Of a DNA stretch of 64,000 bases, positions 9,241 to 24,919 are shown piece by piece. Made by a program: the position numbers and the translations under genes. The stretch's first letter is position 1. The number at the start of each line of letters is the position of its first letter. This DNA comes from Candidatus Stoquefichus sp. SB1 (GTDB lineage: Bacteria; Bacillota_I; Bacilli_A; Erysipelotrichales; Coprobacillaceae): positions 310,001-374,000 of the forward strand of contig NZ_LN852695.1 in the NCBI RefSeq assembly GCF_001244545.1, written 5' to 3'. The notes below the pieces were generated by a model that saw nothing but the letters and a program-made list of their open reading frames with translations, did no database searches and was not told the DNA's origin.

Positions 9241-9592
9241 GGGGGCGTCTTGGATTCGACAGGGGTCAGTTTGAATGAAATTGCAGCCGTGGACACACGT
9301 TACATGTAAAAACAAATATCTGGAAACAGACAAACTAATTACGCTTTCGCATAGTCGACATAGACATGAAAGCTGCCACTATTTAGCGTGCCTATAGCTA
9401 GATAACTGGTAACATAACTCATAGGATAAGGAGATAAGGAGTCTGGACTTATGTCACGAAAATCAACAGAATCGCTAAGCGAAAGATTGCTTGTGGATCG
9501 TAACTTAGTTAAACTCATTCTACAAGATAAGCTGTAGACGTTTCATATGGGACGGCTTTTGGACGCGGGTTCGATTCCCGCCGCCTCCACCA
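9241..9592 (+). ncRNA. ssrA: tmRNA (ssrA)
   Basis: The 5' end GGGGGCGTCTTGGATTCGAC and 3' end GGTTCGATTCCCGCC...CTCCACCA pair into the tRNA-like acceptor and T arm with an encoded CCA. The tag frame ends at TAG 9352-9354 and reads KQISGNRQTNYAFA if it starts at AAA 9310; a TAA lies just before it. The NYAFA ending resembles mycoplasma tags rather than the common Firmicute ALAA ending. Pseudoknot-forming segments fill the rest. tmRNA rescues stalled ribosomes with SmpB. Accessory DNA starts immediately after it. Confidence 0.95.
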
Positions 9593-10900: not shown

Positions 10901-11300
10901 GGACATGCAGTTTGATGTCATTAAAATGTATGAGTTACTGGACTCTACATATATAATTAGTATAAAGTTAATGAAGATGATATTATGAAATTCAAGATAA
11001 ATAAAAATTGCAATAGAGCGGTTATTGAGAATTAGATAAATAGCTATTAGCAAATTAATAGAAAACTTGAAATAAGTTTGGATGAAGCTGAGAAAGTTAA
11101 GTTTTTATTTAATAAATATGTTGAATATGAAGAACATCCACTTTTAGAATTAATTAAAATTGAAATAGCATCTGCATTAGAAAAGAAGGTATAGTTGCCA
11201 TATAAAGAAGAAAAACAAAAAATTATATATATTAAAAGAATTAAGAAATCTATAAATAATGGTTTCTTAAAAAAATCATATTTTTTAATTTATTTAGTAT
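10901..11300 (+). other. Gene-poor stretch with a decayed small ORF
   Basis: No intact gene is visible. A frame around 11061-11194 reads NRKLEISLDEAEKVKFLFNK, then YVEYEEHPLLELIKIEIASA and a stop. It lacks a start with a ribosome site and has stops just upstream. It looks like the tail of a small mobile-element gene, family not recognised. Confidence 0.4.
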
Positions 11301-11430
11301 TTGACTTTCATTTATGTATAAACTATAAGGTAAGTGAGAAAAGGAATAGCTGATAAGCTGTTATGCCTTGGATTTGCTAAGTAGAATAACTACCTCACAG
11401 TTTACCAGCGCATGAGGTAGTTATTTTTTT
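11301..11430 (+). ncRNA. Candidate type I antitoxin RNA with its promoter
   Basis: TTGACT (11301-11306), 17 bases, then TATAAG (11324-11329) form a strong promoter with no ORF behind it. A transcript from about 11336 would fold AATAGCT/AGCTGTT and end at the terminator ATAACTACCTCA...TGAGGTAGTTAT followed by seven T, near 11430. The terminator overlaps the 3' end of the toxin-like ORF on the other strand, the layout of convergent antitoxin RNAs such as RatA or SR4. Confidence 0.5.
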
Positions 11431-11522
11431 GCTTTAAATTCCTTACCTATAATGACAAGAAGCAATTTGACAATTATTCCTACGACAGTCATAACAAATG
11501 CCAAACAAGTTAGCATCACCAT
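11421..11522 (-). CDS. Small holin-like hydrophobic peptide, candidate type I toxin
   Basis: On the minus strand a 33-codon frame from the ATG at 11522 encodes MVMLTCLAFVMTVVGIIVKL, continuing with a hydrophobic stretch and the basic tail GKEFKAKK. Preceding in-frame residues YPYET make the whole resemble Firmicute putative holin-like toxins, which often begin around ET-LMLM. One membrane helix plus a charged tail is typical of type I toxins. No clear ribosome site precedes this ATG; the frame is open to 11570, so the true start may be further out or lost. The 3' end converges with the candidate antitoxin RNA. Confidence 0.45.
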   Translation of the reverse strand: MVMLTCLAFVMTVVGIIVKLLLVIIGKEFKAKK

Positions 11523-11546
11523 AACCGTTTCATATGGATAAAATAG

Positions 11547-11969
11547 TTTCTTTGTGGATTTGCACCAAATTCAGAAACAGCAAAAGTTATGTCTGAGAAT
11601 TTAGGTAATAAAACTGTGCTTAGTGGATTAGTCAGTAAGGGGAAGAATGACCTATCACAGTCACTTCAAATGATGCAAAGACCTTTGATGACAACTGATG
11701 AACTTAAATCAATGCCAAAAGGAAATTTTATCTTAATGAAAACAAGAAAAAATCCAATGAAAACAACTTTAAAATTGTTTATTCATTGGAAAATAAAATT
11801 TGACAAAGAGTCATATGAAGTTAATGCAAGAAGTCAGAGAGATGTTGAGTATGCAGATATATCACAAATAGAAAGAAGTATAAAATCCCAAACTGACTAT
11901 CAGAATATAGAAATAAATTTAAAAGATAGTATTAAAAAAGCTAGAAAGTCAGGAATAAAAATTGAATAA
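11547..11969 (+). pseudogene. VirD4/TraG-type conjugative coupling protein, C-terminal fragment
   Basis: The frame reads FLCGFAPNSETAKVMSENLG, then NKTVLSGLVSKGKND, QSLQMMQRPLMTTDELKSMP and KGNFILMKTRKNPMKT. This is the C-terminal ~140 residues of a VirD4-like coupling ATPase of Tn1549-type integrative conjugative elements. The Walker motifs are absent and a stop (TAG at 11544) precedes the fragment, so it cannot function. It marks decay of a conjugative element at this site. The ATG at 11589 is internal to the original protein. Confidence 0.8.
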
Positions 11970-12141
11970 AGATACATGGTCATACTATTCATCAATAGGA
12001 ACAATAGCCAAGGATACAAGTTTAAGTAAACGTACAATTATGAGGCAAATTGCTGTCTTGGAAAAGAAGAATTAATATTGAAAATACATAGAACTCGAAA
12101 AAAACAATGGTAATACAAGCAATATGCATTTTTTTAACTAG
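11962..12141 (+). pseudogene. Broken helix-turn-helix gene of a conjugative element
   Basis: A first frame reads SSIGTIAKDTSLSKRTIMRQ, then IAVLEKKN and stops at 12075. A second frame continues ELILKIHRTRKKQW and a third NNGNTSNMHFFN. Joined, they give a typical HTH plus the Asn/Gly-rich wing of replication or transfer-region regulators. Two frameshifts are therefore needed. It overlaps the end of the coupling-protein fragment, as neighbours in an element would. Confidence 0.65.
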
Positions 12142-12307: not shown

Positions 12308-12733
12308 TTATTTATTTGAATAAATTTGCTTGTTTATTTCTTTGATAAAACTGATAAGATCTAATTCGGTTTCAAGAGCCTGATTTAAAATATTATATGG
12401 ATCATCTATATTTAATGTGGAATTTTGTAAAATTTGTATAAATAATTTTAAATCATCCCTTTGTGTATTGTAGTAGGTAATAGGAATATCGTATTTGTTT
12501 TTATCAAAGGTTGTAACTTCAAGAGTAATTTGAGCTGAGTCAAATCTAACACCAGTAGTAAGTCCATAACATACCTTTACTTCCTTGATTTGAGAGTAAT
12601 TTAAAGTAGTAATCGGATTCTTTCCTTTCATTTTCTCAAATAAACTAAGATACTCATAATAAATCAGTTCGTTGTCTTTATTATTTATTAGACAACCATG
12701 TTTTTTAGTGCCCATCAATAAACAATCTATCAT
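12308..12733 (-). CDS. Hypothetical protein next to agrB
   Basis: This 141-residue soluble protein starts MIDCLLMGTKKHGCLINNKD and is preceded on its strand by AAAAAGGAGG with good spacing. Alternating hydrophobic strands (ITTLNYSQIKEVKVCYGLTT, RFDSAQITLEVTTFDKNKYD) and a C-terminal helix suggest a PH-like beta fold, but I do not recognise a family. It lies 123 bases downstream of agrB on the same strand and could be co-transcribed. No catalytic motif is seen. Confidence 0.65.
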   Translation of the reverse strand: MIDCLLMGTKKHGCLINNKDNELIYYEYLSLFEKMKGKNPITTLNYSQIKEVKVCYGLTTGVRFDSAQITLEVTTFDKNKYDIPITYYNTQRDDLKLFIQILQNSTLNIDDPYNILNQALETELDLISFIKEINKQIYSNK

Positions 12734-12856: not shown

Positions 12857-13390
12857 CTATATGTTCTTTTTATTAATAAAATATAATATTTCTACTGTAA
12901 GCAATGCAGAAAAAATAGGAATAAAAATTTCATTTTTATTAAAGGTTATAATATAAATAATCAAAAAACAAAAAAAAGTTAAAAGATTAAAGTTTTTCAA
13001 TTTAATTGATAAAGTATTTTTTTTGGATGGATGAAGATAAATAAATATTAAAATACTAATAATAGAAAAAATTTTTAAAATGGTAAAATATATTTGATTA
13101 TTTCGCAACAATAAGTTAATTAGCATTATAGATATCATCATTAAAGTACATCTGTAAATTGTTTTTGCATGAAATCCGCCTATTGTAATTCTAAGAAAAC
13201 CAAATGTTATTAAAAAGAAAAAACCAAATGTGATATCAGAAAATAAATAAGATATAAATAAGATGGTTAAAATAGTAAAAGAATTAAAAATCAAAACTTG
13301 AAGACCATATTCCACTATTTCTTTATTATAAATATTTGAATTTGATTTTTTAATTAATAAATCAGAAATATTAGATAATATTTTCTTCAA
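12857..13390 (-). CDS. agrB: AgrB-type autoinducer-processing membrane peptidase
   Basis: This 177-residue polytopic protein has the AgrB hallmarks: FLRITIGGFHAKTIYRCTLM, containing the His and the downstream Cys of the cysteine protease pair, and IYLHPSKKNTLS. AgrB cuts the C-terminal tail of AgrD and forms the thiolactone or lactone autoinducer. Its start overlaps the end of the XRE regulator by 20 bases on the same strand. The substrate gene agrD is divergent, 450 bases away, rather than directly downstream as in classical agr loci. Confidence 0.88.
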   Translation of the reverse strand: MKKILSNISDLLIKKSNSNIYNKEIVEYGLQVLIFNSFTILTILFISYLFSDITFGFFFLITFGFLRITIGGFHAKTIYRCTLMMISIMLINLLLRNNQIYFTILKIFSIISILIFIYLHPSKKNTLSIKLKNFNLLTFFCFLIIYIITFNKNEIFIPIFSALLTVEILYFINKKNI

Positions 13391-13667
13391 ATTCTTGTTT
13401 ATCCTTTACTAATATTAGAATTTTATAGTATGTTTGGTCATCAACATCAGTTGTATCAATAAATCTTCTTTCTGAATTACCACATAAATAATCTATGCTA
13501 ACTTTATATAATCTAGCTAATATTATAAGGTTGTCATAGCTTGGTTTTCTTTCACCTCGTTCATATGCAGAAATTGTACTTCTATCAATTCCTGTGATTT
13601 TTTCTACAATGATTTGAGTATAGCCACGATCTTTTCTAATTTTCTTTAGTCTTTTTCCAAATCCCAT
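13371..13667 (-). CDS. XRE-family regulator coupled to agrB
   Basis: The ATG at 13667 has GGTGA eight bases upstream and gives 98 residues; TTG and GTG starts at 13679 and 13676 are possible. It begins MGFGKRLKKIRKDRGYTQ and has a Cro/C1-type helix-turn-helix, with TGIDRSTISAYERGERKPSY as recognition region, then a short C-terminal segment of unknown role. It overlaps agrB, so it is translationally coupled to signal production. The divergent region 13668-13837 is its likely operator zone. Confidence 0.85.
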   Translation of the reverse strand: MGFGKRLKKIRKDRGYTQIIVEKITGIDRSTISAYERGERKPSYDNLIILARLYKVSIDYLCGNSERRFIDTTDVDDQTYYKILILVKDKQEFEENII

Positions 13668-13682
13668 ATTTATCACCAAATT

Positions 13683-13708
13683 TAGAGTACACTAATAGGT
13701 GTCACTCT
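13683..13708. promoter_or_regulatory. Candidate operator in the divergent agr region
   Basis: AGAGTACAC and GTGTCACTCT form an imperfect inverted repeat around TAATAG, directly upstream of the XRE gene. It is a plausible autoregulatory site; there is no experimental support. Confidence 0.4.
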
Positions 13709-13740
13709 AGGTAACATTGCCACTAAAAGTAACTTTTTTA

Positions 13741-13800
13741 ACGTTTAATCAATGATATTTGTATTTAATAATTATAAAATAGATAAAAAATAAGTATAGT
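13741..13800 (+). promoter_or_regulatory. Candidate LytTR-controlled promoter of agrD
   Basis: ACGTTTAAT (13741-13749) and GTATTTAAT (13761-13769) are direct repeats exactly 20 bases apart, about two helical turns, as LytTR regulators bind. TATAGT at 13795-13800 (or TATAAA at 13806) may be the -10; no good -35 is seen, consistent with activation. The same 20-base spacing recurs at 33351, 37612 and 43283. Confidence 0.5.
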
Positions 13801-13837
13801 GCTAGTATAAATATATAAAGAGGAGGTAACTAATATT

Positions 13838-13951
13838 ATGTTTTTTAAATCTATTTGTACTTTCCTAGATAAGTTGGCTAGAACAGCTTGTTACTCACAT
13901 TCGTTTATTGGATGCTATGAACCAGAAAAGCCAAAAATTTTAGAAAAGTAA
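13838..13951 (+). CDS. agrD: AgrD-like autoinducer precursor peptide
   Basis: This short ORF encodes 37 residues, MFFKSICTFLDKLARTAC then YSHSFIGCYEPEKPKILEK. It has the three parts of AgrD: an amphipathic N-terminal helix, a hydrophobic Cys-containing core, and a charged tail with EPEKP, the AgrB recognition and cleavage region. C18 is the likely ring cysteine, with the ring closing near Y27; C26 is also in the core. AGAGGAGG lies 10 bases before the ATG. A perfect palindromic terminator follows directly. It is divergent from agrB and upstream of the LytTR regulator and sensor. Confidence 0.85.
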   Translation: MFFKSICTFLDKLARTACYSHSFIGCYEPEKPKILEK

Positions 13952-13958
13952 TATTTGT

Positions 13959-13988
13959 AAAAAAACATTTCTTAAGAAATGTTTTTTT
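13959..13988 (+). terminator. Terminator after agrD
   Basis: A perfect 15-bp-arm palindrome centred on CTTAAG, with arms of A7-CATTT and AAATG-T7, should limit read-through from agrD into the regulator gene 57 bases downstream. Confidence 0.8.
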
Positions 13989-14045
13989 ATCTATATAAAA
14001 TACTATATATGGTATACTAATTAAATAAGGAGAGGTGATAATAAC

Positions 14046-14747
14046 ATGCGAATAATGATTGTTGATGATGATATAGAATTTTCTAGTAATCTATCAAATG
14101 AGATTAAAATTTATTTTAATAAACTAGTTGATACAATAGATATGGAAATAATTTCAAAAGATTTTTCTTTAGATATGAAAATAAATGCAGATGTTGTTTT
14201 TATTGATATAGATCTAAATGGTAAAAATGGAATTGCTTTAGCTAAATATATAAAAAGTGTTTCACCTAAGACATTGATTATTTTTATTTCATCTAAAGAG
14301 GAATTGGTTTTTAATGCATTATCTGTTACAACTTTTCAGTTTATTAGAAAAGCTAAATTTAAAGAGGACAGTATTAGAGTTTTTAAACAATTATATCAAT
14401 ATATACAAGAAAATGAAAAAAAGATTATTTTAGAGATAAATGGAAGAAAAAATGTTATTAAAATTAATGAAATACAATTTATTCTATCGTTTGGTAGGGA
14501 TTTACTAATAAAAACAATTTTACATGAATATGTTTTAGTTTCAACAATTAAAGAAATTATTGATTTATTAAGAACTAAATCATATTATGATATTGTTCAA
14601 ATCAGTAGAAATGTTGCTATTAATCTAAATTATATTTCAAATATAGAAGCAAATACTGTTATTTTGCAAGATGAAACATCTCATACAATCGGAAGAATAT
14701 ATAAATCAAATTTGATAAAAAAATATGAGGAGTTTTTATTAAGATGA
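14046..14747 (+). CDS. AgrA-like LytTR response regulator
   Basis: This 233-residue protein has a receiver domain (MRIMIVDDDIEF; phospho-acceptor D54 in VVFIDIDL; switch region IIFISSKEELVFNALS) and a C-terminal LytTR DNA-binding domain (LEINGRKNVIKINEIQFILS through SRNVAINLNYISNIEAN). AgrA-type regulators activate quorum-controlled promoters through paired direct repeats. The stop overlaps the start of the sensor gene by four bases. GGAGAGGTGATAATAAC precedes the ATG. Its likely targets are the agrD and lanA promoters. It is a close paralogue of the regulator at 46864. Confidence 0.9.
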   Translation: MRIMIVDDDIEFSSNLSNEIKIYFNKLVDTIDMEIISKDFSLDMKINADVVFIDIDLNGKNGIALAKYIKSVSPKTLIIFISSKEELVFNALSVTTFQFIRKAKFKEDSIRVFKQLYQYIQENEKKIILEINGRKNVIKINEIQFILSFGRDLLIKTILHEYVLVSTIKEIIDLLRTKSYYDIVQISRNVAINLNYISNIEANTVILQDETSHTIGRIYKSNLIKKYEEFLLR

Positions 14748-15970
14748 TTTTCTTTGACTTGTTAATGACCGTATTTGAAGATTTCGTAATTTCTTATTTT
14801 TTAATATCATTCTTTTTTGAAGAAAAAAGGTTTAGATTATCATCTATATTAACATTTATTTGTGTTATAGAAACATTTATATTGAATAATTATTTCAAGA
14901 ATAATGAGCTACTCTTTTTTTCATTAGTATTAACATGTATGGCTATGCTTTGTATTATAAAAAGAAAAGTAAATTGGTTTTATTTAGTCATACCGTGTTT
15001 ATTGATAGGATTATTGTTAGTATCAAATATTACTTCATTTTATATAGTTTCATTATTAACTAACATAAAGATTAATGATATATCAAATAATCTTTATATG
15101 CTAGTTTTGACAATTCTTCTCTCACGTTTAATTTTTTTAATAACAAGTATATATTTATACAATAGTTTAAAATCATTAAGAATAAAAAGAGATCAATATG
15201 CTTTTATTGAGTATAAATCATTTATAATTTTTATTTTGTGTTTATTTTCTATTGTAACAACAATAGGAGAAAGCATAGTGTATGGTATTTTTGACTATAA
15301 AATATACTTATTGTTGATTATAGAATTTTTATTAATGTGTATTTCATCAATTGTTTTATTTATTAATATACAAAACAATTATAAAAATCAATTAAAAATG
15401 CAATCAGAAGTAATACAATTAAAATATTCTCGTCAGATGTATTTTGAAACATGTAAATTGTCCTATCAATTATCCCAAGATAAGCATGATTTATATTATT
15501 TATTGAAAAAAATTGAAGATGCTATTATTAAAAAAAATAATAATGAAGGACTATATTTGATACAAAATGCAATAGGCCAAATAAATAAAGTTGACATTTC
15601 ATACACATCTTCGAATCCATTATTTGATTATATGATTACAAAGAAAATAAAAAATTTAAAATTATTTAAGTACGACGTTATATATACTGCAAACATATCT
15701 CAAAAGGAACTACTAAATGATTTAACGTTAATAGACAATTTAGAGAGATATATAGATTGTCTAACATTAAATAATACTAAATCAATAGGAAAATATTTAG
15801 AAGTTAGTATTTATGAAAAAAATAATTATATAATTTTTGATTTAAGAATTAATAAAAATATGGAACTTTCTAACTCTATATTTAACTTCGAAAATAAGTC
15901 AGAACATATATTACAAGAGAGTTTGAACTGTGAAAGCAGTAGCACAGGTATTAAAGTATTAATTAAATAA
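14744..15970 (+). CDS. AgrC-like sensor with degenerate ATPase domain
   Basis: This 408-residue protein has about six hydrophobic helices in residues 1-205, as in peptide-sensing AgrC proteins, then a cytoplasmic part with the candidate phospho-His H248 in LSQDKHDLYYLLKK, a DHp-like coiled region and a reduced ATPase-like end. Where AgrC-family kinases carry an N-box such as DNAIEA and glycine boxes, this protein reads LTLIDNLERYIDCL and has no GxG motif; it also ends early (STGIKVLIK). It may sense the AgrD product, but self-kinase activity is doubtful. It overlaps the regulator gene and ends before a forked terminator. Confidence 0.75.
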   Translation: MIFFDLLMTVFEDFVISYFLISFFFEEKRFRLSSILTFICVIETFILNNYFKNNELLFFSLVLTCMAMLCIIKRKVNWFYLVIPCLLIGLLLVSNITSFYIVSLLTNIKINDISNNLYMLVLTILLSRLIFLITSIYLYNSLKSLRIKRDQYAFIEYKSFIIFILCLFSIVTTIGESIVYGIFDYKIYLLLIIEFLLMCISSIVLFINIQNNYKNQLKMQSEVIQLKYSRQMYFETCKLSYQLSQDKHDLYYLLKKIEDAIIKKNNNEGLYLIQNAIGQINKVDISYTSSNPLFDYMITKKIKNLKLFKYDVIYTANISQKELLNDLTLIDNLERYIDCLTLNNTKSIGKYLEVSIYEKNNYIIFDLRINKNMELSNSIFNFENKSEHILQESLNCESSSTGIKVLIK

Positions 15971-15977
15971 ATTTATT

Positions 15978-16034
15978 AAAGGTTTAATATAAAAGTGGTT
16001 CATAGAAGAACCTAATAAGTTGTTAAACCTTTTT
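15978..16034 (+). terminator. Forked terminator after the agr sensor gene
   Basis: AAAGGTTTAA (15978-15987) pairs with TTAAACCTTT (16023-16032), followed by TT; an inner hairpin GGTTC/GAACC lies between them. It separates the regulatory genes from lanA, which must have its own promoter in 16035-16160. Confidence 0.7.
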
Positions 16035-16181
16035 GTATCGTTAATAATGACACATAGAGTAACATAATTGTGCTTTTATTTAAAATAATTGTTGAACATC
16101 TACATAAAATGGAAAAATATAAAAATGTTTAATATCATATAGGTACAGTAGTACTACACAAAAAGAAAGGAGGAAATTATT

Positions 16182-16376
16182 GTGAGTAAGGATTTAAGTA
16201 AGGATTTTGATTTAAATGCTGGTGGAGATGACAATAATCCAGAAAATCCAAATGGTCGAAGTGTTATTTCGTGGATTACTGCATCATTAGTTATGTCAAC
16301 AGGCGATTTAATTTCTGCAATTACACCTGGCTGGACACAAGGCCCTGGATACACGGAAAATGAAGAATGTTGGTAA
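16182..16376 (+). CDS. Class I lanthipeptide-type precursor peptide (Cys-poor)
   Basis: GTG 16182, eight bases after AAAGGAGG, encodes 64 residues: leader MSKDLSKDFDLNAGG, a Asp/Asn/Pro linker ending NPNGR (26), then core SVISWITASLVMSTGDLISA, ITPGWTQGPGYTENEECW. FDLN at 9-12 matches the class I FNLD box recognised by LanB. The core has ten Ser/Thr but one Cys (C63, second to last). ITPGWTQG resembles the CTPGC ring of nisin-type lantibiotics with both Cys replaced. Cleavage after R26 is a guess; no LanP is present. It is followed by a strong hairpin and the modification genes. The product is likely dehydrated, perhaps reduced or glycosylated, with at most one thioether ring. Confidence 0.85.
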   Translation: MSKDLSKDFDLNAGGDDNNPENPNGRSVISWITASLVMSTGDLISAITPGWTQGPGYTENEECW

Positions 16377-16389
16377 AATAAAAGTAGTT

Positions 16390-16432
16390 AGAGCCTGATT
16401 ATAAATGGAAGTTTATTATTGGGCTCTTTCTT
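16390..16432 (+). terminator. Stem-loop between precursor and modification genes
   Basis: AGAGCCTGATTATAAA pairs with TTTATTATTGGGCTCT (one mismatch, two G-T pairs) around the loop TGGAAG, followed by TTCTTCT. As in other lanthipeptide operons it probably attenuates read-through so the precursor is made in excess over its enzymes. Confidence 0.75.
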
Positions 16433-16453
16433 CTATAAGAAAGGATATACATT

Positions 16454-17212
16454 ATGGTGAAGATATATGGATTAATAGGAAGTAATAAAAAAAACGGCAC
16501 TTGTTATTCTTTAGTAATTGAATTAATTAAACTGATTGAAAGAATTTTCTCTATTAAAGGTATTGAAGTAATATATAAGATTGATTATGTATGTGATTTT
16601 AACATTAAGGAATGTAAGGGATGCTGTAATTGTTTTAAAAATGGAAAGTGTATGATTAATGATGATATGGCAAATATTAAAAAAAATATATTAGAAAGTG
16701 ATCTTCTTATTATTGCTTCACCTGTTTATCTTAATCAAATAACTGGAACATTAAAAAAAGTTTTGGATCGTATTGCATATTGGACACATTTAATGCCTTT
16801 AATAGGGAAAAGAGGAATAATAATAACTAATTCTTCATTCAGCGGAAATAAAGAAAGTACAGATTATCTAGAATTAATATTGAATCATTTAGGAGTATCT
16901 GTAGATTATGTTTTTAAATATAAAGGCAATGGATTAAACAAAAATCAACAACATTATAATAAAAAGGAACTATTAGTCTATTCAAATATTTTTCAAAATC
17001 TAGATTTTAAAATAGATAAAAGAGTAACGCAAATATTTGATACATATTCCAAATGGTATAGCCAACTCATAAAAGAGAATGTTGATATTGACAGTAATAA
17101 TGAACTTATTTTTTGGAATAAAAATTATTTAGGAAAATCAATAGATGTGGTCCATAAAAAAAATATACAAAATTTAAAAAAGAGGTATAAAAAGAATGAA
17201 TATAAAAAATGA
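16454..17212 (+). CDS. Flavodoxin-fold FMN-dependent oxidoreductase of the lanthipeptide cluster
   Basis: This 252-residue protein has an NADPH-dependent FMN reductase/flavodoxin fold: the N-terminal phosphate loop IYGLIGSNKKNGTCYSLVIE, a Cys-rich CKGCCNCFKNGKC segment typical of iron-sulfur-flavoprotein relatives, and IIASPVYLNQITGTLKKVLD. The last ~90 residues are an extra tail of unknown role. It starts at ATG 16454 after AAAGGATAT and overlaps lanB by 17 bases, so it belongs to the biosynthetic operon. A flavin reductase here could hydrogenate dehydroalanine or dehydrobutyrine to D-amino acids, but other redox chemistry is possible. Confidence 0.75.
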   Translation: MVKIYGLIGSNKKNGTCYSLVIELIKLIERIFSIKGIEVIYKIDYVCDFNIKECKGCCNCFKNGKCMINDDMANIKKNILESDLLIIASPVYLNQITGTLKKVLDRIAYWTHLMPLIGKRGIIITNSSFSGNKESTDYLELILNHLGVSVDYVFKYKGNGLNKNQQHYNKKELLVYSNIFQNLDFKIDKRVTQIFDTYSKWYSQLIKENVDIDSNNELIFWNKNYLGKSIDVVHKKNIQNLKKRYKKNEYKK

Positions 17213-20057
17213 ATTTTATGTAAGATTGCCCTATTTTAATATTTTAGATTATAAAAAATTTTGTAATATGAATTGTGAAGATTTAGTAAATTTTAGCAAA
17301 AATAATTTTTTAGAAGGACTATTAATAGAATCATTTGATCTATATAAATCCATAATGGAAGAAAAAGAACCAATAGAAACTTTGTCACATTCTATAAATA
17401 AATATTTATTGAGAAGTGCCACAAGAACAACACCACACGGATTAAGTGTAAAAATATTGAAAGGTAGCTTTAATGTAAAGTCTAAAAAAACATTCAATGA
17501 AATTAACAACTATAGAGCAATAGAATTGGATTTTGAGTGGTGCCAAGGTGTACTAAAAAAAGTTGAAAATAACAATTTTGAAAAATTGAAAGTTAGATTA
17601 AACAGTCATATTGAAATTAACAAAGATACGATCTTTAATGAGTGGATAGACTGCAATTGTGAAAGAAAAGAAGAAAAATTAAATATTGTTATTGATAAAA
17701 AAGCTCCATTAGAAAAAATAGTTAATTTATTGAATAATAGATCTATGGAAATAAAAGCAATTAAAAAATATTTGCTAAATGAATATGAATATGCTCAAGA
17801 AGAACAAATTAATAAATTTTTAAAGGAGTTGTTAGATAATCAAATTTTATGCTCAGATTTAAGAATAAATATGCTCAGTGTACGAACAATTAATTGGCTT
17901 ATAGAAAAAATAAGCTTATATGAAGATACAGAGAGTATAATTGATCAACTAAAAAACATATATAATGAACTGGAAAATTATCAAAATGACCTCATCAATC
18001 AAGGAAATAAAAAATTAGAGTATATTATAGAATTAATGGAGGCTATTTATTCTTGTAAAAATTATTTATGTATAACTTTATATAATAAGGAAGAAATATT
18101 TTTAGAAAATACAGTAAAAGATGATTTAAAAGATTATGTGAATTTTTTGAATGTAATAGCACTCGGAAAAAATAAAGTTGATAATTATTACCATAAGTTT
18201 ATTGATAAATATGGATTTCAGGCAATAAATATTAAAGAAGTAGTGGATCCAATAAATGGTATAGGACTACCAAAATCAACGGATGTTAAAGATAATATGT
18301 ACTATCAAAAAATAAAAAATTATATATTTGAAAATAATAGTGATGAAGTTGATATATCTGAAATATTTGGCATACTTCCTCCAGTGGATAATCAATTTGA
18401 AGAGTTTGAGTTGGCTTTTAGAATTTATGAAAAAAATAGGAAAAATATCTATGAAGTAACACCAGTTGTTGGAAGTAATCAAATGTATAAGATAATGGGT
18501 AGATTTAAAGAAATAGAGAAAATAACATTTTCAAATAGTAGCTATGATAAAGTAGAAGTTATTTATTATCCAAAAATTGAAAAAGTAGGGAATGTACTTA
18601 GTTGCTCTACAACAGCTGAATATGTTTTAGATTATGGAAATTCGGATATATCTAATAAACAAGAGATAGGATTAAATGATATATATGTGTTTCCTCTTAA
18701 AGGTAATCTTGTTCTTATTAATAAAAACAATGGTAGAAGACTAAAGTTTATTAATACAAATATGACAACATTTAATTTAATGCCAGATATATTGAAAACC
18801 TTAATAAATATATCAAATAGATATGAACCAGATCCATTTTCATTAAATCATATATTACAGGATATTTTTAAAGGGTTTACTTTTCAAAAAAAAATAGTAT
18901 ATAAAAATTTTGTCATAAAACCTAAAACATTAGAAATAGATAAAGAAGAAATAAAAAATAAAGATATAATAAATTATATTTTTTCAAGATTACATAAATC
19001 AATTCTTTTTTGTGGAATTAGGGATAATTTACTTTTATTAAATTTAAATGTAGAGTCACATAAAGATATTCTAAAAAAAATGATTGATCAATACGAGACA
19101 GTTCTGATTCAAGATACAGATATATATGACCATTTAAATAAAAAAAATGAGGAAAATGGAAGTTTTATAAATGAATATATATTTGAATTTTATAATACTA
19201 ATAAAATTTATGATATACTGCCCAACATTCAATATATGGAGTATCCAGATAACTACGAAAACAGTAATGATATATGGCTAAGTTTTAAACTATATATGTG
19301 TACAGCATACATGAATAAATTCATAATTAATCAGTTAATTGAATTTGTAAAAAGTCTTAAGCAAAGTCAGTTAATAATGAAATTTTTCTATATAAGATAT
19401 TTTGATGATGCTGCACACCTTCGGATTAGATTTTTAGTTAATAAAAAAAATATAGGGGAGCTATTTCAGGTTTGTTATGAATATTTACATTATCAAAAAA
19501 GTTTAGGTTATGTTAAAAGATTTGTTTTAGATGAATATATCCCAGAATTAGTAAGATATGGGGGTAAATCAAATATAGCATACATTGAAAATATATTTGA
19601 CTTATCATCGAAATATTGTATCGATGAAATAAAATATGGAGAGTCAAAAGAAAGATTATATGAAAACTATATATTATTTGTATACTACATTTCCTCTAAA
19701 ATTAACTATGATTTTAAACTAGTTTTAAATGAGTTTAGTAAGTATATACCATATTATCATAGAAATAATCTTGCTGATTCAGTTAGAAGAAAGATAGTTT
19801 TGTTTGAAAAAGGTAAATTACCAATTAATTTATTATTTACTAGTAATGAATTTATTATTATAGAAAAGATAATTGATGAAATAAATCTAATGTTAAAAAA
19901 TAAAACAATTAATTATGTGGAAGTTCCATCAATGTTAACTAGCCTTTTTCATATGCATTTTAATAGATTGATAGGAATAAACAGATTAATTGAAAATCAA
20001 TTAAATGGAAACATAGAAAATATTATGTATACAATTAAAAAATTGAAACTATTATAG
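17196..20057 (+). CDS. lanB: Class I lanthipeptide dehydratase LanB
   Basis: This 953-residue full-length LanB has an N-terminal glutamylation domain beginning YVRLPYFNILDYKKF, with the family mark YLLRSATRTTPHGLSV near residue 75, and a C-terminal thiopeptide-type elimination (SpaB_C) domain with FFYIRYFDDAAHLRIRFLV and ELVRYGGKSNIAYIENIF. LanB enzymes use glutamyl-tRNA to glutamylate Ser/Thr, then eliminate glutamate to give Dha/Dhb. It overlaps the flavoprotein gene by 17 bases and is followed after six bases by the glycosyltransferase. The domains look complete, so the peptide is expected to be dehydrated. Confidence 0.92.
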   Translation: MNIKNEFYVRLPYFNILDYKKFCNMNCEDLVNFSKNNFLEGLLIESFDLYKSIMEEKEPIETLSHSINKYLLRSATRTTPHGLSVKILKGSFNVKSKKTFNEINNYRAIELDFEWCQGVLKKVENNNFEKLKVRLNSHIEINKDTIFNEWIDCNCERKEEKLNIVIDKKAPLEKIVNLLNNRSMEIKAIKKYLLNEYEYAQEEQINKFLKELLDNQILCSDLRINMLSVRTINWLIEKISLYEDTESIIDQLKNIYNELENYQNDLINQGNKKLEYIIELMEAIYSCKNYLCITLYNKEEIFLENTVKDDLKDYVNFLNVIALGKNKVDNYYHKFIDKYGFQAINIKEVVDPINGIGLPKSTDVKDNMYYQKIKNYIFENNSDEVDISEIFGILPPVDNQFEEFELAFRIYEKNRKNIYEVTPVVGSNQMYKIMGRFKEIEKITFSNSSYDKVEVIYYPKIEKVGNVLSCSTTAEYVLDYGNSDISNKQEIGLNDIYVFPLKGNLVLINKNNGRRLKFINTNMTTFNLMPDILKTLINISNRYEPDPFSLNHILQDIFKGFTFQKKIVYKNFVIKPKTLEIDKEEIKNKDIINYIFSRLHKSILFCGIRDNLLLLNLNVESHKDILKKMIDQYETVLIQDTDIYDHLNKKNEENGSFINEYIFEFYNTNKIYDILPNIQYMEYPDNYENSNDIWLSFKLYMCTAYMNKFIINQLIEFVKSLKQSQLIMKFFYIRYFDDAAHLRIRFLVNKKNIGELFQVCYEYLHYQKSLGYVKRFVLDEYIPELVRYGGKSNIAYIENIFDLSSKYCIDEIKYGESKERLYENYILFVYYISSKINYDFKLVLNEFSKYIPYYHRNNLADSVRRKIVLFEKGKLPINLLFTSNEFIIIEKIIDEINLMLKNKTINYVEVPSMLTSLFHMHFNRLIGINRLIENQLNGNIENIMYTIKKLKLL

Positions 20058-20069
20058 GAGATAATGAAA

Positions 20070-21371
20070 ATGAAAAAAATAATATTTTTAACTGGATATT
20101 CTATTAGCCATATATATCCATTAGAAACAATGATCAAATTTCTAAAAAATAAATATGAATTATATATTATATGTACATATAAGAATAAGTGGTTACCAGA
20201 AAAGTGGGGAGTAAATGTAATTATCTATCCAGAAAAATATTGGAAATGTAAGCATGAAAATAAAATAAAATCACAAAGAGAAGATAATGAGTTATTGTAT
20301 CAAAATGAATCTATACAAGAAAAATATATATCATTTTTGCAAAATGATGCATTATCTACGTTTAATTTTTATGAAGATGTAGTTCAGTTTTTAAAAAAAA
20401 CCATTAATGAAATTAATCCGTCTGTCGTTTTTAAAGATTCAACAGATATTTATTGGGATGTAATAAGAAAAGAATTTAATTCAATAAAAACTATCGGATT
20501 TATAACAAATAATTTATACTCATGGAAATATTTACAAAATAAAGAAATCTTATTGCACTTTCTAGGTATACTAGACATAGAAAAAGAATTAAGTCCTGTA
20601 TTTATAGATAACTTTAAAGACATTATTGATGATATATATAAACAAATATCTTTACAATTAGGAGAAAGATTTCTTCGAAGCTATTATCAATATGATCCAC
20701 AAGAGGAAGTAAATATTATTTTTTCAATGCCATTTTTCCAACCAATTGAATCTTTAGAACAAAAATATAATAATTACATAGTGACTCCACAACTTGAAAA
20801 TTTTACAGTAGAGAGTATAATTCCTCAAAAATTAATAACCTTTATTGGACAAGAAAAAGTTATTTATATTTCCACAGGATCTTTTATAACAAAAAATATA
20901 GAATATTATATTAAATTAATTCAACTATTAACTTATGACCAAACTAATAAAATAATAATTTCTGGTGGAAAGCAGACTGATGAAATAAATAAGTACATTT
21001 TAGAAAACTCATTAGAAGACAATGCAATTGTATTTCAACATGTACCTCAAAAATATGTTTTATCAAACTGTAAATTGTTTATATCTACAGGGGGATTTAA
21101 TAGTGTGAAAGAAGCAATATATTTTAAAGTTCCAATGTTAGTCATTCCTATAACTTGTGAGCAAAGATTAAATGGATTAATAATAGAAAAACTAGGAATA
21201 GGGCATACGCTATACAAGAGAAATCAGAAAACAATAGATATATTGATTAAAGATTTATTAGATAATGAAAGTTTCTCTCAAAAATTACAGTATTATAGCA
21301 ATAATATTATAGATAATGATATGAACTATAAATGTTTCAAGGAAATAGAAGAGTGGATAACAAATGAATAA
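20070..21371 (+). CDS. GT1/MGT-type glycosyltransferase in the lanthipeptide operon
   Basis: This protein of about 433 residues has the GT-B fold of UDP-glycosyltransferases: N-terminal FLTGYSISHIYPLETMIKF and a C-terminal donor-binding half with VIYISTGSFI, FQHVPQKYVLSNCKLFISTG and GGFNSVKEAIYFKVPMLVIP, matching the HGGxxS-containing signature with His replaced by Thr. The ATG at 20070 is nine bases from AGGAG; the ATG at 20064 is too close. It lies between lanB and lanC, overlapping lanC by eight bases, which makes the precursor peptide its likely acceptor. A role in self-protection by glycosylation is an alternative. Confidence 0.82.
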   Translation: MKKIIFLTGYSISHIYPLETMIKFLKNKYELYIICTYKNKWLPEKWGVNVIIYPEKYWKCKHENKIKSQREDNELLYQNESIQEKYISFLQNDALSTFNFYEDVVQFLKKTINEINPSVVFKDSTDIYWDVIRKEFNSIKTIGFITNNLYSWKYLQNKEILLHFLGILDIEKELSPVFIDNFKDIIDDIYKQISLQLGERFLRSYYQYDPQEEVNIIFSMPFFQPIESLEQKYNNYIVTPQLENFTVESIIPQKLITFIGQEKVIYISTGSFITKNIEYYIKLIQLLTYDQTNKIIISGGKQTDEINKYILENSLEDNAIVFQHVPQKYVLSNCKLFISTGGFNSVKEAIYFKVPMLVIPITCEQRLNGLIIEKLGIGHTLYKRNQKTIDILIKDLLDNESFSQKLQYYSNNIIDNDMNYKCFKEIEEWITNE

Positions 21372-22407
21372 GAAATACGAATTTTCTTATAAAAATTATC
21401 AATTCTATATACAAAATCGTGATATCTATGAAGAATTATATACATTACGAGATTTAAATATATTTTACTCATTAATTAATTTAGATAATAGATTTAAAAA
21501 TACTATTGTAGAGTACGAAAAAAGGATAAAAACTATTGTTAATGAAGTTACGTTAGACTGTTCACTTGGCTCAGGATTGTGTGGGTTAGGATATATGTAT
21601 CATTTTATGTCAATTACAAATTCTAAATATAAAAATGAAAAAAGTAAAATAGATACTCTTTTAAAAAAATTAGTAGTTACATTTATAGATAGTAATATTC
21701 CTATTATTGATTCAACAGGAAATTTTAACATTCTATATGACTATTTTAAAGGTATGTCTGGAATATTTGCATATGTAATACAAACTTCAAATGATTTAAA
21801 TGTTCAAAGAATGATTATAGATTATTTAATATATGAGATATCTCAAATAGATTATAATGAAATCCATGCTAATTTAGGCATTGCACATGGATTATCATGT
21901 TTATTAAATATATTAAGACTAGATAATAATTATTGCTATTCAAAAAATGATATTAATATTATAAAGAAGTTAATGTTAATTATTGAATATAATTTAAGAA
22001 ATAATTTAAAAAAATCAAAAAGAATTTCCTTGTCTTGGGGCAATGGAGATTTTGGTATAGTGTTTTCAATTTTAAGCATATCTAAAAAAATGAATATAGA
22101 AATATCAACTGACTTATATGAACTTATAAAATTCATAATTAATAAGGGAGATAGAATTATATATGAAAAATTAAATCCTTGTAATGGGGTATTTGGATAT
22201 AAAAGAATGTTACAAATTATTACATTTGATGATAAAGAGATATGGTTACATGATAACCAAGATATAGCAATCATAGGAGACGTTATAGTACATAGTAACC
22301 TTAAGGGAAGAGATATTTCCATAATAGATGGTTTGCTCTCAAAAATATTGATTAATAATATTTGCAAAATGCACCTCGATGAATATTATAAGTTATTTAT
22401 GTTATAG
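21364..22407 (+). CDS. lanC: LanC-like cyclase with altered zinc ligands
   Basis: This 347-residue alpha-toroid protein shows LanC repeats: LGSGLCGLGYMYHF, YFKGMSGIFAYVI, NLGIAHGLSCLLNIL (H175, the catalytic-acid position), SLSWGNGDFGIVFS and LNPCNGVFGYKRML. Canonical LanC has WCYGDPG and CHG supplying Cys, Cys and His to zinc. Here the first Cys is G226 and the His is N274; only C273 remains. Zinc-dependent thiol activation therefore looks impaired. The protein is shorter than NisC (about 418). It overlaps the glycosyltransferase gene. It may be a non-catalytic partner or use another mechanism on the nearly Cys-free peptide. Confidence 0.8.
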   Translation: MNKKYEFSYKNYQFYIQNRDIYEELYTLRDLNIFYSLINLDNRFKNTIVEYEKRIKTIVNEVTLDCSLGSGLCGLGYMYHFMSITNSKYKNEKSKIDTLLKKLVVTFIDSNIPIIDSTGNFNILYDYFKGMSGIFAYVIQTSNDLNVQRMIIDYLIYEISQIDYNEIHANLGIAHGLSCLLNILRLDNNYCYSKNDINIIKKLMLIIEYNLRNNLKKSKRISLSWGNGDFGIVFSILSISKKMNIEISTDLYELIKFIINKGDRIIYEKLNPCNGVFGYKRMLQIITFDDKEIWLHDNQDIAIIGDVIVHSNLKGRDISIIDGLLSKILINNICKMHLDEYYKLFML

Positions 22408-22423
22408 GAAGGAAGTTAATATT

Positions 22424-24184
22424 ATGGATAATATAAAAAAAGTGTTTAGTAGAGTTGGATATATTATAGACTTGGTTAAAAGATATAAGTTTCAACTGGT
22501 CATCATTCTTTTATTTGTTAGCATCATCAATTCAATTATTCCATATGCTACAATGATTAATACTCAAATTCTTATTAATAAAATTCAAATGACACAATCA
22601 TTGGAGAATATTATAGTTAACATAATATTCTATGGTATATTAGGGCTCCTATCAATGATCTTTTTAAATTTATATAACTACATGCTTATAAAATATAGAG
22701 AATATTTATATTTACACTTAAATGTATTGATATTAGAGGAAACAAAAAAATTTAAATTGAGTGATTATGAAAATCCAACAGTATATGATTTAATTCAGAG
22801 AGCTGAGCAAGATATTGGTATGCGACCATATAATATAATAGTTTCGATATTAAGTTTGTTTAGTGGTGTGATTAATTTCTTTATTGCTATTTTAATTATG
22901 ACAACATGGCATTGGTGGATAGTAATAGTATTCATGTTTTTGCCGTTTGTTTCATTTAAATACTTTAATAATATAACAAAATATGAATATGAAATTATTT
23001 ATAATCGTGCACAAAATGAAAGAAAATCATGGTATATATCACATTTATTAACAAAAGATGATTATATAAAAGAAATTAGAAATTTAGGATTGCATGATTA
23101 TTTAATGAATCGGTTCAAAAAACTCAGAAAATTATTTTTTATACAAAATATTAATATTAATAAGAAAAAAACGTTTTTCACTGCCTTATATGACTTATTA
23201 AATTTATTGATTTCCTTTTCTATTGTCATATTAGCAAGTTTTGAAGCAGTGACAGGTGTAATTTTAGTCGGAAATCTTATGACATATATAAATACATCTT
23301 CAAAAATTGAGACATCGATTAGAAATATAGTTAATGCAATGTTTAGTCTATATCAAGAGGCAATGTATGTTGATAATATATCTAATTATTTATCATATGA
23401 TGTGAATAATGATGAAGGAACAACACAAATCTCAACTATTGATACAATTGAGTTTAGAAATGTAAGTTTTAAATACCAAAATCAAAATAAGTATGCACTT
23501 AGAGGAATTAATTTGAAAATAAAAAAAGGAGATACTATAGCACTTGTGGGGAAAAATGGATCAGGGAAATCTACCCTAATAAAGATATTATCTGGTCAGT
23601 ACAGTGATTTTGAAGGTGAGGTATTGATTAACAACATTGATATAAAACAAATAGATAAACAATCTTTATTTAAACAAATAAATATTTTATTTCAGGATTT
23701 TAATAAATTCCAATTTACTATTAAAGAAAATATAGGGTTTGGTAATTTGGATGAATTAGACAATTTATCTAAAATAAAAGAATGTGCAAATATATCTGGA
23801 GCCAATGAATTTATTGATAAACTTGAAGACGGCTATTTGCAACAAGTTGGATCATGGTTTAATGATGGGGTTCAATTATCTGGTGGTGAGTGGCAAAAAT
23901 TGGGAATAAGTAGATTACTAATGAAAAATGGTGATTGTTATATTTTAGATGAGCCTACTGCAGCATTAGATCCAGTTTCAGAATATGAATTTTTTATAAG
24001 ATTGAAAAATAATTTAAATAATAAAATTGGAATTTTTATAACACATAGGTTTATAAATGCAAAATTTGCTACAAAAATTTTGGTTATTGAAGAAGGAGAA
24101 ATTCGAGAATATGGAACACATGTAGAATTAATTAAATCTGATGGTTTGTATGCAAAAATGTTTAAATTACAAAATGAATTATAA
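22424..24184 (+). CDS. lanT: Lanthipeptide ABC exporter LanT (no peptidase domain)
   Basis: The ATG at 22424 after AGGAAGGAAG gives 586 residues; an upstream ATG at 22379 would overlap lanC and lacks a site. Six membrane helices occupy roughly residues 20-310, then a nucleotide-binding domain with Walker A LVGKNGSGKSTLIK, signature LSGGEWQKLGISR, Walker B CYILDEPTAALDP and the H-loop ITHR. There is no N-terminal C39 peptidase, so leader removal needs another protease, as for NisT systems. It ends the cluster; no LanFEG or LanI immunity gene follows directly. Confidence 0.88.
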   Translation: MDNIKKVFSRVGYIIDLVKRYKFQLVIILLFVSIINSIIPYATMINTQILINKIQMTQSLENIIVNIIFYGILGLLSMIFLNLYNYMLIKYREYLYLHLNVLILEETKKFKLSDYENPTVYDLIQRAEQDIGMRPYNIIVSILSLFSGVINFFIAILIMTTWHWWIVIVFMFLPFVSFKYFNNITKYEYEIIYNRAQNERKSWYISHLLTKDDYIKEIRNLGLHDYLMNRFKKLRKLFFIQNININKKKTFFTALYDLLNLLISFSIVILASFEAVTGVILVGNLMTYINTSSKIETSIRNIVNAMFSLYQEAMYVDNISNYLSYDVNNDEGTTQISTIDTIEFRNVSFKYQNQNKYALRGINLKIKKGDTIALVGKNGSGKSTLIKILSGQYSDFEGEVLINNIDIKQIDKQSLFKQINILFQDFNKFQFTIKENIGFGNLDELDNLSKIKECANISGANEFIDKLEDGYLQQVGSWFNDGVQLSGGEWQKLGISRLLMKNGDCYILDEPTAALDPVSEYEFFIRLKNNLNNKIGIFITHRFINAKFATKILVIEEGEIREYGTHVELIKSDGLYAKMFKLQNEL

Positions 24185-24388: not shown

Positions 24389-24454
24389 ATGCTTTGGATT
24401 AGAGCCCCCTTCGTTTTCATTTCAAAAATAGAAATGAAAATGGAGGAAAAAAGA

Positions 24455-24919
24455 ATGAAAAATGATTATAAAAGAAATTACTTCTGGATACGACCAGATG
24501 AGTATGGAAATAGAAAATATTACTTCAACATTAAAGGGGATTTTATTGAAGTAGAAAAGGATGTATTTAATGTCTGTTACAATTCATATAAAAAACAGTT
24601 AAGGGATCAGAAAAAAGATAATAATGTAGCTTTAGTTAATCTGGAAGATATGAATAAAGATGGTATTGAGTTAATTGACTTTGTTGGTATTGATACTGAT
24701 TATGTAACTGATTTATATAATCAGGAACGTATTACCCAAATAATGAAATGTATTAATGAACTAGATGAAAAAGATAAAGTGTTAATTACTCATCTTCTTA
24801 TTAAGGAGAAAACTGAGCGAGAATTAGCTGAGTTGAATAATGTAACTCAACCTGCTATTCATAAGAGAAAAAATCTAATTATAAAAAAGATGAGAGAGAA
24901 ACTAAAAAATAATTTTTAA
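24455..24919 (+). CDS. Sigma-70 region 4-like protein of mobile-element type
   Basis: The ATG at 24455, eight bases after GGAGG, gives 154 residues. The N-terminal half (NYFWIRPDEYGNRKYYFNIK) is typical of small sigma-like proteins carried by integrative conjugative elements. The C-terminal ~60 residues form a sigma region-4 helix-turn-helix (INELDEKDKVLITHLLIKEK, LAELNNVTQPAIHKRKNLII). Region 2 is not recognisable. Such genes often sit near recombination or transfer modules, so it may be a remnant of the same element as the VirD4 fragment. Confidence 0.75.
   Translation: MKNDYKRNYFWIRPDEYGNRKYYFNIKGDFIEVEKDVFNVCYNSYKKQLRDQKKDNNVALVNLEDMNKDGIELIDFVGIDTDYVTDLYNQERITQIMKCINELDEKDKVLITHLLIKEKTERELAELNNVTQPAIHKRKNLIIKKMREKLKNNF

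Follow-up and report, generated by a model that had tools for sequence, protein, structure and literature searches.

Autoinduction, in which the lantibiotic itself switches on its own gene cluster, is the textbook arrangement for nisin. Genes of the agr quorum-sensing type have been reported beside class II (LanM) lanthipeptide clusters in C. hungatei, C. cellulovorans, C. saccharobutylicum and B. paralicheniformis (PMC10301443), and lactone signals are known in the S. intermedius autoinducing peptide (AIP) and in gelatinase biosynthesis-activating pheromone (GBAP) (PMC3673130). Class III includes LanC domains that are free of zinc (PMC7268733), and one survey reports all the remaining dehydratase-cyclase combinations, among which LanB with an undefined triad would fall, but characterises none of them (PMC11251773). 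The locus considered here lies in a 64,000-nucleotide stretch (the window) of the 3.59-Mb genome of Candidatus Stoquefichus sp. SB1 (contig NZ_LN852695.1, positions 310,001 to 374,000), where agr-type genes adjoin genes for a LanB dehydratase and a LanC-fold protein. It is reasonably likely that these genes are one functional unit, in which agr-type quorum sensing gates the production of a LanB-modified, exported peptide.

The agr-linked LanM clusters and the LanM-like CA_C0082 of clostridia (PMC10301443) share with this locus the position of agr directly beside synthetase genes and a LanC-like domain without zinc ligands, but they have class II LanM or LanM-like proteins and six-membered thiolactone signals, whereas in the window LanB and the LanC-like protein are separate, the precursor is a dedicated one, a glycosyltransferase, a flavin mononucleotide (FMN) reductase and an XRE-type regulator are encoded, and AgrD has Ser at the ring position. 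Like nisin-type class I clusters (NisABTCRK), the window encodes a LanB with both domains and the NisB motifs, a LanC fold, an FNLD-type leader and a peptidase-free LanT; unlike them it has no LanRK, LanP or LanFEG, its LanC homologue is short of two zinc ligands, its precursor has one Cys, glycosyltransferase and FMN reductase genes are present, and control would be exerted by agr and XRE. The agr/fsr lactone systems (S. intermedius AIP, E. faecalis GBAP) have the same AgrB-AgrD-sensor-LytTR set and a ring-position Ser, whereas here the target would be a peptide-modification cluster, the sensor kinase domain is strongly diverged and the lactone is predicted. Class III LanKC, other zinc-free LanC domains and the 'B-Unk' combinations (PMC11251773) also have a LanC fold without the Cys-Cys-His triad, but in the window the LanC homologue stands alone and is paired with LanB. 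In the literature searched, no characterised LanB partner of a zinc-free stand-alone LanC type was found, nor, with most subscription journals outside its scope, did the search find agr with LanB clusters beyond the LanM cases. An earlier, sequence-only reading had called the wiring unusual, which is apt for LanB clusters, although the agr-linked class II clusters are a precedent (PMC10301443). If the proposal is true, LanB-made peptides of gut bacteria of the Stoquefichus/Faecalibacillus family join virulence, sporulation and LanM loci under agr control, and the locus is also a compact case of a LanC-fold protein without a zinc site and of predicted Ser-lactone signals in gut commensals.

Linkage of agr and lan genes

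Pfam and TIGR matches confirm AgrB, AgrD, the LytTR regulator, LanB, the LanC homologue and the LanT-type exporter, all of which the sequence-only reading had named (Table 1). The open reading frames (ORFs) of the cluster are all intact, contiguous and recognised, but the AgrC-like sensor has no Pfam kinase match. Left to right, the minus strand carries the gene of a 141-residue protein, agrB and xre, and the plus strand agrD, lytTR, agrC-like, lanA, FMN reductase, lanB, glycosyltransferase, lanC-like and lanT; the contiguous unit first outlined thus stands, with its left edge moved out to 12308 by the 141-residue gene.

A search for PF04738 in 315 genomes of the order found lanB in four genomes, as five clusters within one bacterial family, and agr genes lie near all five, although the LanB proteins are only 25-50% identical to one another. 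A pairing of agr with lanB elsewhere, for which a search was proposed earlier, is thus found, and none of these five clusters is devoid of agr. With two, five, three and five AgrB genes in the four lanB genomes, it is improbable that all five clusters would fall within 15 kb of agr by chance (about 1e-7, a rough estimate). By locus, the neighbouring genes are agrD, agrB, agrC-like and lytTR at L009; agrD, lytTR, xre and agrB in Candidatus Stoquefichus massiliensis (L010), where the contig ends at the expected agrC position; and agrD, lytTR, agrC-like and agrB in one cluster of Faecalibacillus intestinalis (L012/L015). In a second cluster of the same F. intestinalis genome (L011/L014), agrD, lytTR and agrC-like begin about 2.3 kb from the last lan gene and agrB lies about 5 kb beyond them. 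A sixth cluster (L017), which comes from an uncultured bacterium and lies on a short contig, has agrD, so that the comparison comprises six loci, five of them from one bacterial family. Among 392 genomes of the phylum, no LanB over the cut-off was found outside this family. A genome-contig scan with the single window LanB found no relatives, and the LanB alignment as query found the five loci; a plasmid search with LanB gave lantibiotic dehydratases at 23-25% identity among the best 20 matches.

The LytTR proteins of the lan loci cluster on a tree (2 of 500 label shuffles were as good; branch support is modest), which fits co-inheritance of agr and lan genes, and the window LanT is 44-53% identical to those of relatives. 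The 141-residue protein, a candidate immunity or accessory protein, matches L010:6460-6903 (30% over 136 residues, 2e-15) and L009:4480-4902 (26%, 4e-11) in BLASTP, and its homologues stand beside lan genes in L009, L010 and L012. The agr and lan modules are interleaved, because this gene of the xre-agrB operon has homologues inside the lan operons of relatives.

An operator shared by the agr and lan promoters

A 17-bp palindrome in the spacer between xre and agrD recurs in the lanA promoter region. Allowing one mismatch at most, two copies were found in the window, one at 13700 and one at 16048 on the other strand, against 0.02 expected. The pattern TGNNACTCTANGTNNCA occurs at these two places only in the whole genome, and a reversed control nowhere; as its N was set after the second site had been seen, the mismatch count in the window is the cleaner test. 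The window and L010 have TGNNACTCTAGGTNNCA in common in their xre/agrD spacers, each time beside a second palindrome copy, and the XRE homologue has the same place in L010. In a scan with a matrix built from the xre/agrD sites themselves, sites of this strength were confined to the two loci with a gene for this XRE. Because it stands at both promoters, agrD/xre and lanA, and nowhere else in the genome, the palindrome ties agr and lan regulation together, and probably couples them through the XRE protein, which would bind it as either repressor or activator and is probably a second layer of control. This unique operator pair makes the regulatory link directly testable.

A direct repeat at lanA (16060-16092) is suggestive of a LytTR box: 1 of 300 shuffles of that region was as good, with 20 regions tested. 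As a family-wide LytTR box the direct repeat with 21-bp spacing was rejected, since only the window lanA promoter and a Faecalibacillus agrD promoter stand out.

The predicted signal and its sensor

AgrB contains the stretch GGFHAKTIYRC, with His and Cys seven apart. The C-terminal tails of AgrD align across the loci (YEPEKP, YNPKKP, GQPKEP, YQPKKP, YNPKCP and YQPKIP), and the residue five before the tail is Ser in five lan-linked AgrD peptides, including that of the window (ahead of YEPEKP), and Cys in L017; the L010 AgrD was found by eye, without a match to the family model, and that of L015 is slightly below the cut-off. The cyclic AgrD signal proposed earlier therefore keeps its peptide, which scores over the TIGR04223 cut-off, and becomes a predicted Ser lactone, likely with ring SFIGC and tail YEPEKP, a ring assignment that we infer, because the window AgrD has further Cys and Ser residues. 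A lactone would not be special to lan loci, because agr loci without lan linkage have Ser in the same column in two cases (Cys in two others). An AT-rich inverted repeat after the end of agrD (13951) looks by eye like a terminator, and the terminator scan did not list it.

The response regulator is of the LytTR type and not an OmpR-type LanR, and the sensor, in a Pfam search, has neither a kinase domain nor a HATPase match, which sets the pair apart from nisin-type LanRK. In an alignment of homologues its His248 is invariant. A low-confidence model (predicted local distance difference test, pLDDT, 61) has a cytoplasmic part like AgrC (6e95/6e52/4bxi, Z about 8) and resembles S. aureus AgrC and DesK, so that the AgrC-like name given earlier has a tentative structural likeness behind it and no Pfam kinase match.

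Precursor and modification enzymes

The lanA gene has a GTG start preceded by AGGAGG and encodes an FDLN leader box; related precursors in L009, L010, L011 and L012 also have an F[DNE]L box. The core is rich in Ser and Thr; its Cys number one in the window and one to three in relatives, which also share its C-terminal [YF]TE...C motif. Because the window precursor has one Cys, the product would have at most one thioether ring. The two F. intestinalis clusters contain four tandem precursor genes (L012:7481-8305) and two identical ones (L011:16219-16578). At L009:18972-19199, upstream of lytTR, an ORF encodes an FNLDL leader box but looks frameshifted in its downstream part, and is possibly a decayed second lanA; at L017:774-974 a small ORF beside agrD (MKIMDNGYEKP...NGVAPRSIVAV...), with a cleavage-site-like stretch and no Cys, is a candidate peptide.

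The window LanB has both glutamylation and elimination domains and its catalytic motifs align with those of NisB. In L010 (10346-13254) lanB is split by a reading-frame break, through mutation or assembly error, into ORFs of 814 and 142 residues. The model of the LanC homologue (predicted template modelling score, pTM, 0.80) has the LanC fold, with Z 22.4 to MadC (3.8 A over 322 residues) and Z 21.9 to NisC, and relative to NisC its WCYG has become WGNG and its CHG has become CNG, so that two of three zinc ligands (Cys284, His331) are gone. WGNG is identical in five of the six homologues, the window included; L011 alone keeps WCYG and CHG, and this sole locus with an intact triad has precursors with three Cys. 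The FMN reductase is of the same family as LanJB (named in PMC7268733), and its gene stands in a lanthipeptide-type cluster. A glycosyltransferase gene is present in 6/6 clusters. PIG-L deacetylase genes lie in or near the clusters of four relatives (the host has one PIG-L domain, outside the window cluster on another contig), and this family, which acts on N-acetylglucosamine, suggests that the products of the relatives may contain an amino sugar. The LanT-type protein has no C39 peptidase domain in a Pfam search. The locus had been called a class I lanthipeptide cluster, and the LanB domains and FNLD-type leader agree with this; with two zinc ligands lost from the LanC homologue, one Cys in the core, and FMN reductase and glycosyltransferase genes added, it cannot be assigned securely to class I. 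It is filed here as a LanB/LanC-fold cluster of lanthipeptide type for a ribosomally synthesised and post-translationally modified peptide.

A model of regulation and its alternatives

The best reading of these data is that a separate agr signal would control the lan genes, because the agr module is stably attached across the family and an operator is common to both promoters. AgrB would cleave AgrD and cyclise it, probably via Ser, to a lactone with an SFIGC ring, and the AgrC-like sensor and LytTR regulator would read this signal outside the cell, while XRE would bind the palindromes at 13700/13718 and 16048 and so couple the transcription of xre-agrB, agrD and lanA. LanB would then dehydrate Ser and Thr of LanA, the FMN reductase would reduce some dehydro residues to D-residues, the glycosyltransferase would add a sugar to the LanA peptide, the LanC-fold protein would help to close a C-terminal thioether ring (one at most), and export of the presumably bioactive product would fall to the ABC protein. 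It is a tentative and rather doubtful extension that the clusters make up a family of quorum-gated, glycosylated, D-residue peptides, made by LanB with a zinc-free LanC-fold protein (a ring closer without zinc, or a substrate-presenting partner) and switched by a Ser lactone and by XRE at the shared operator. Several findings weigh against agr control of a working lan pathway. Canonical AgrA/LytTR consensus dimers were nowhere better than shuffles in 12 promoter regions, lanA and agrD among them, so that the AgrD control suggested earlier draws on the conserved linkage and the unique shared operator, and not on the LytTR scan; a matrix scan found no strong operator copy in the L010 lan operon; the AgrB proteins of lan loci are not one clade on a tree that is unresolved; the sensor kinase domain is too diverged for Pfam, so that its signalling by phosphorylation is putative; neither a LanP protease nor LanFEG is among the window cluster genes; and the LanC homologue keeps its fold yet has lost two zinc ligands.

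One could suppose that the agr module is independent, shares no more than a mobile island with the lan genes and controls itself or other genes, while the lan genes follow other signals. Conjugative-element remnants flanking the locus, the two to five AgrB genes in each of these genomes and the want of a proven LytTR site at lanA or agrD would suit such an arrangement, which is nevertheless unlikely given linkage at five of five clusters even though the LanB proteins are so far apart in sequence (25-50% identity), an operator common only to the agrD/xre and lanA promoters, and a lan accessory gene within the xre-agrB operon. That the AgrC-like sensor binds the mature LanA product in place of AgrD, as in nisin autoinduction, might be read from the position of the lytTR and agrC-like genes, which immediately precede lanA on its own strand; the complete AgrB/AgrD pair, kept across the family, and a LytTR-type regulator and AgrC-resembling sensor so unlike LanRK make this quite improbable. 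The lost zinc ligands, the single Cys of LanA and the split lanB of a same-genus relative could also indicate a pathway on its way out that no longer makes a thioether peptide, but the window ORFs are all intact, the identity of WGNG in five of six LanC homologues speaks for selection, and the LanB motifs and the precursor C-terminal [YF]TE...C are kept, so that decay is very improbable. Finally, the closeness of agr and lan genes allows that the LanB and LanC-like enzymes modify the AgrD signal itself, an idea also raised for CA_C0082; since that protein is dispensable for active AIP in C. acetobutylicum (PMC10301443), and the window has a dedicated precursor with an FDLN leader and an AgrD without an FNLD box, we give this hardly any credence. 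Agr control of the lan genes is accordingly preferred to these alternatives.

Features of the locus and its surroundings

Table 1. Coordinates of genes and putative regulatory sites of the agr-lan locus (window positions)
Feature	Position	Strand	Remarks
141-residue protein	12308..12733	-	no Pfam domain; homologues within lan operons of relatives
AgrB, signal-peptide processing membrane peptidase	12857..13390	-	PF04647, 77 bits; TTG start as listed
XRE-type helix-turn-helix regulator	13371..13679	-	HTH_3, 61 bits; first gene of xre-agrB operon
Putative palindromic operator TGTCACTCTAGGTAACA	13700..13716		xre/agrD spacer; weaker copy next, 13718-13734
AgrD, 37 residues	13838..13951	+	TIGR04223, 25.8 bits (cut-off 19)
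LytTR response regulator, AgrA-like	14046..14747	+	Response_reg 37 bits, LytTR 27 bits, both above cut-offs
AgrC-like sensor	14744..15970	+	helical N-terminal part; conserved His248 in a long helix; kinase domain diverged
Putative second operator copy TGTTACTCTATGTGTCA	16048..16064	-	lanA promoter region; one of only two TGNNACTCTANGTNNCA sites in genome
Direct repeat TAACATAATTGT / TAAAATAATTGT, 21 bp apart	16060..16092		possible LytTR box, suggestive
LanA-type precursor, 64 residues	16182..16376	+	leader box KDFDLN, one Cys, C-terminal YTENEECW
NADPH-dependent FMN reductase, LanJB-type candidate	16454..17212	+	PF03358 (FMN_red), 65 bits
LanB dehydratase, full length	17196..20057	+	PF04738 (Lant_dehydr_N) 183 bits, PF14028 (Lant_dehydr_C) 126 bits
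Glycosyltransferase, UDPGT/MGT-like	20064..21371	+	PF00201, 38 bits; TIGR01426, 75 bits, below its cut-off of 260
LanC-fold protein	21364..22407	+	PF05147 (LANC_like), 59 bits; WGNG and CNG for WCYG and CHG
Predicted LanT-type ABC exporter	22379..24184	+	ABC_tran, 104 bits

To the left of the locus, at 9241-9592 and 11297-12137, lie a transfer-messenger RNA gene and then conjugative-element remnants (a VirD4/TraG C-terminal fragment, ORF 11589-11969), whose DNA is 76-83% identical to that of a fuller element (L016) beside the L009 cluster; the window cluster may have arrived as cargo of such an element. A second agr locus of the host (L013:5374-17257), about 150 kb from that of the window, lies among genes for small secreted peptides, FtsX-like membrane proteins and ABC ATPases; it resembles lactococcin-972-type bacteriocin loci by eye, its peptides have no Pfam match, and a similar set occurs in Candidatus S. 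massiliensis (L052). To the right, after lanT, an ORF at 24389-24919 resembles sigma-70 region 4 and has a homologue past the end of the L009 cluster (L009:3134-3586).

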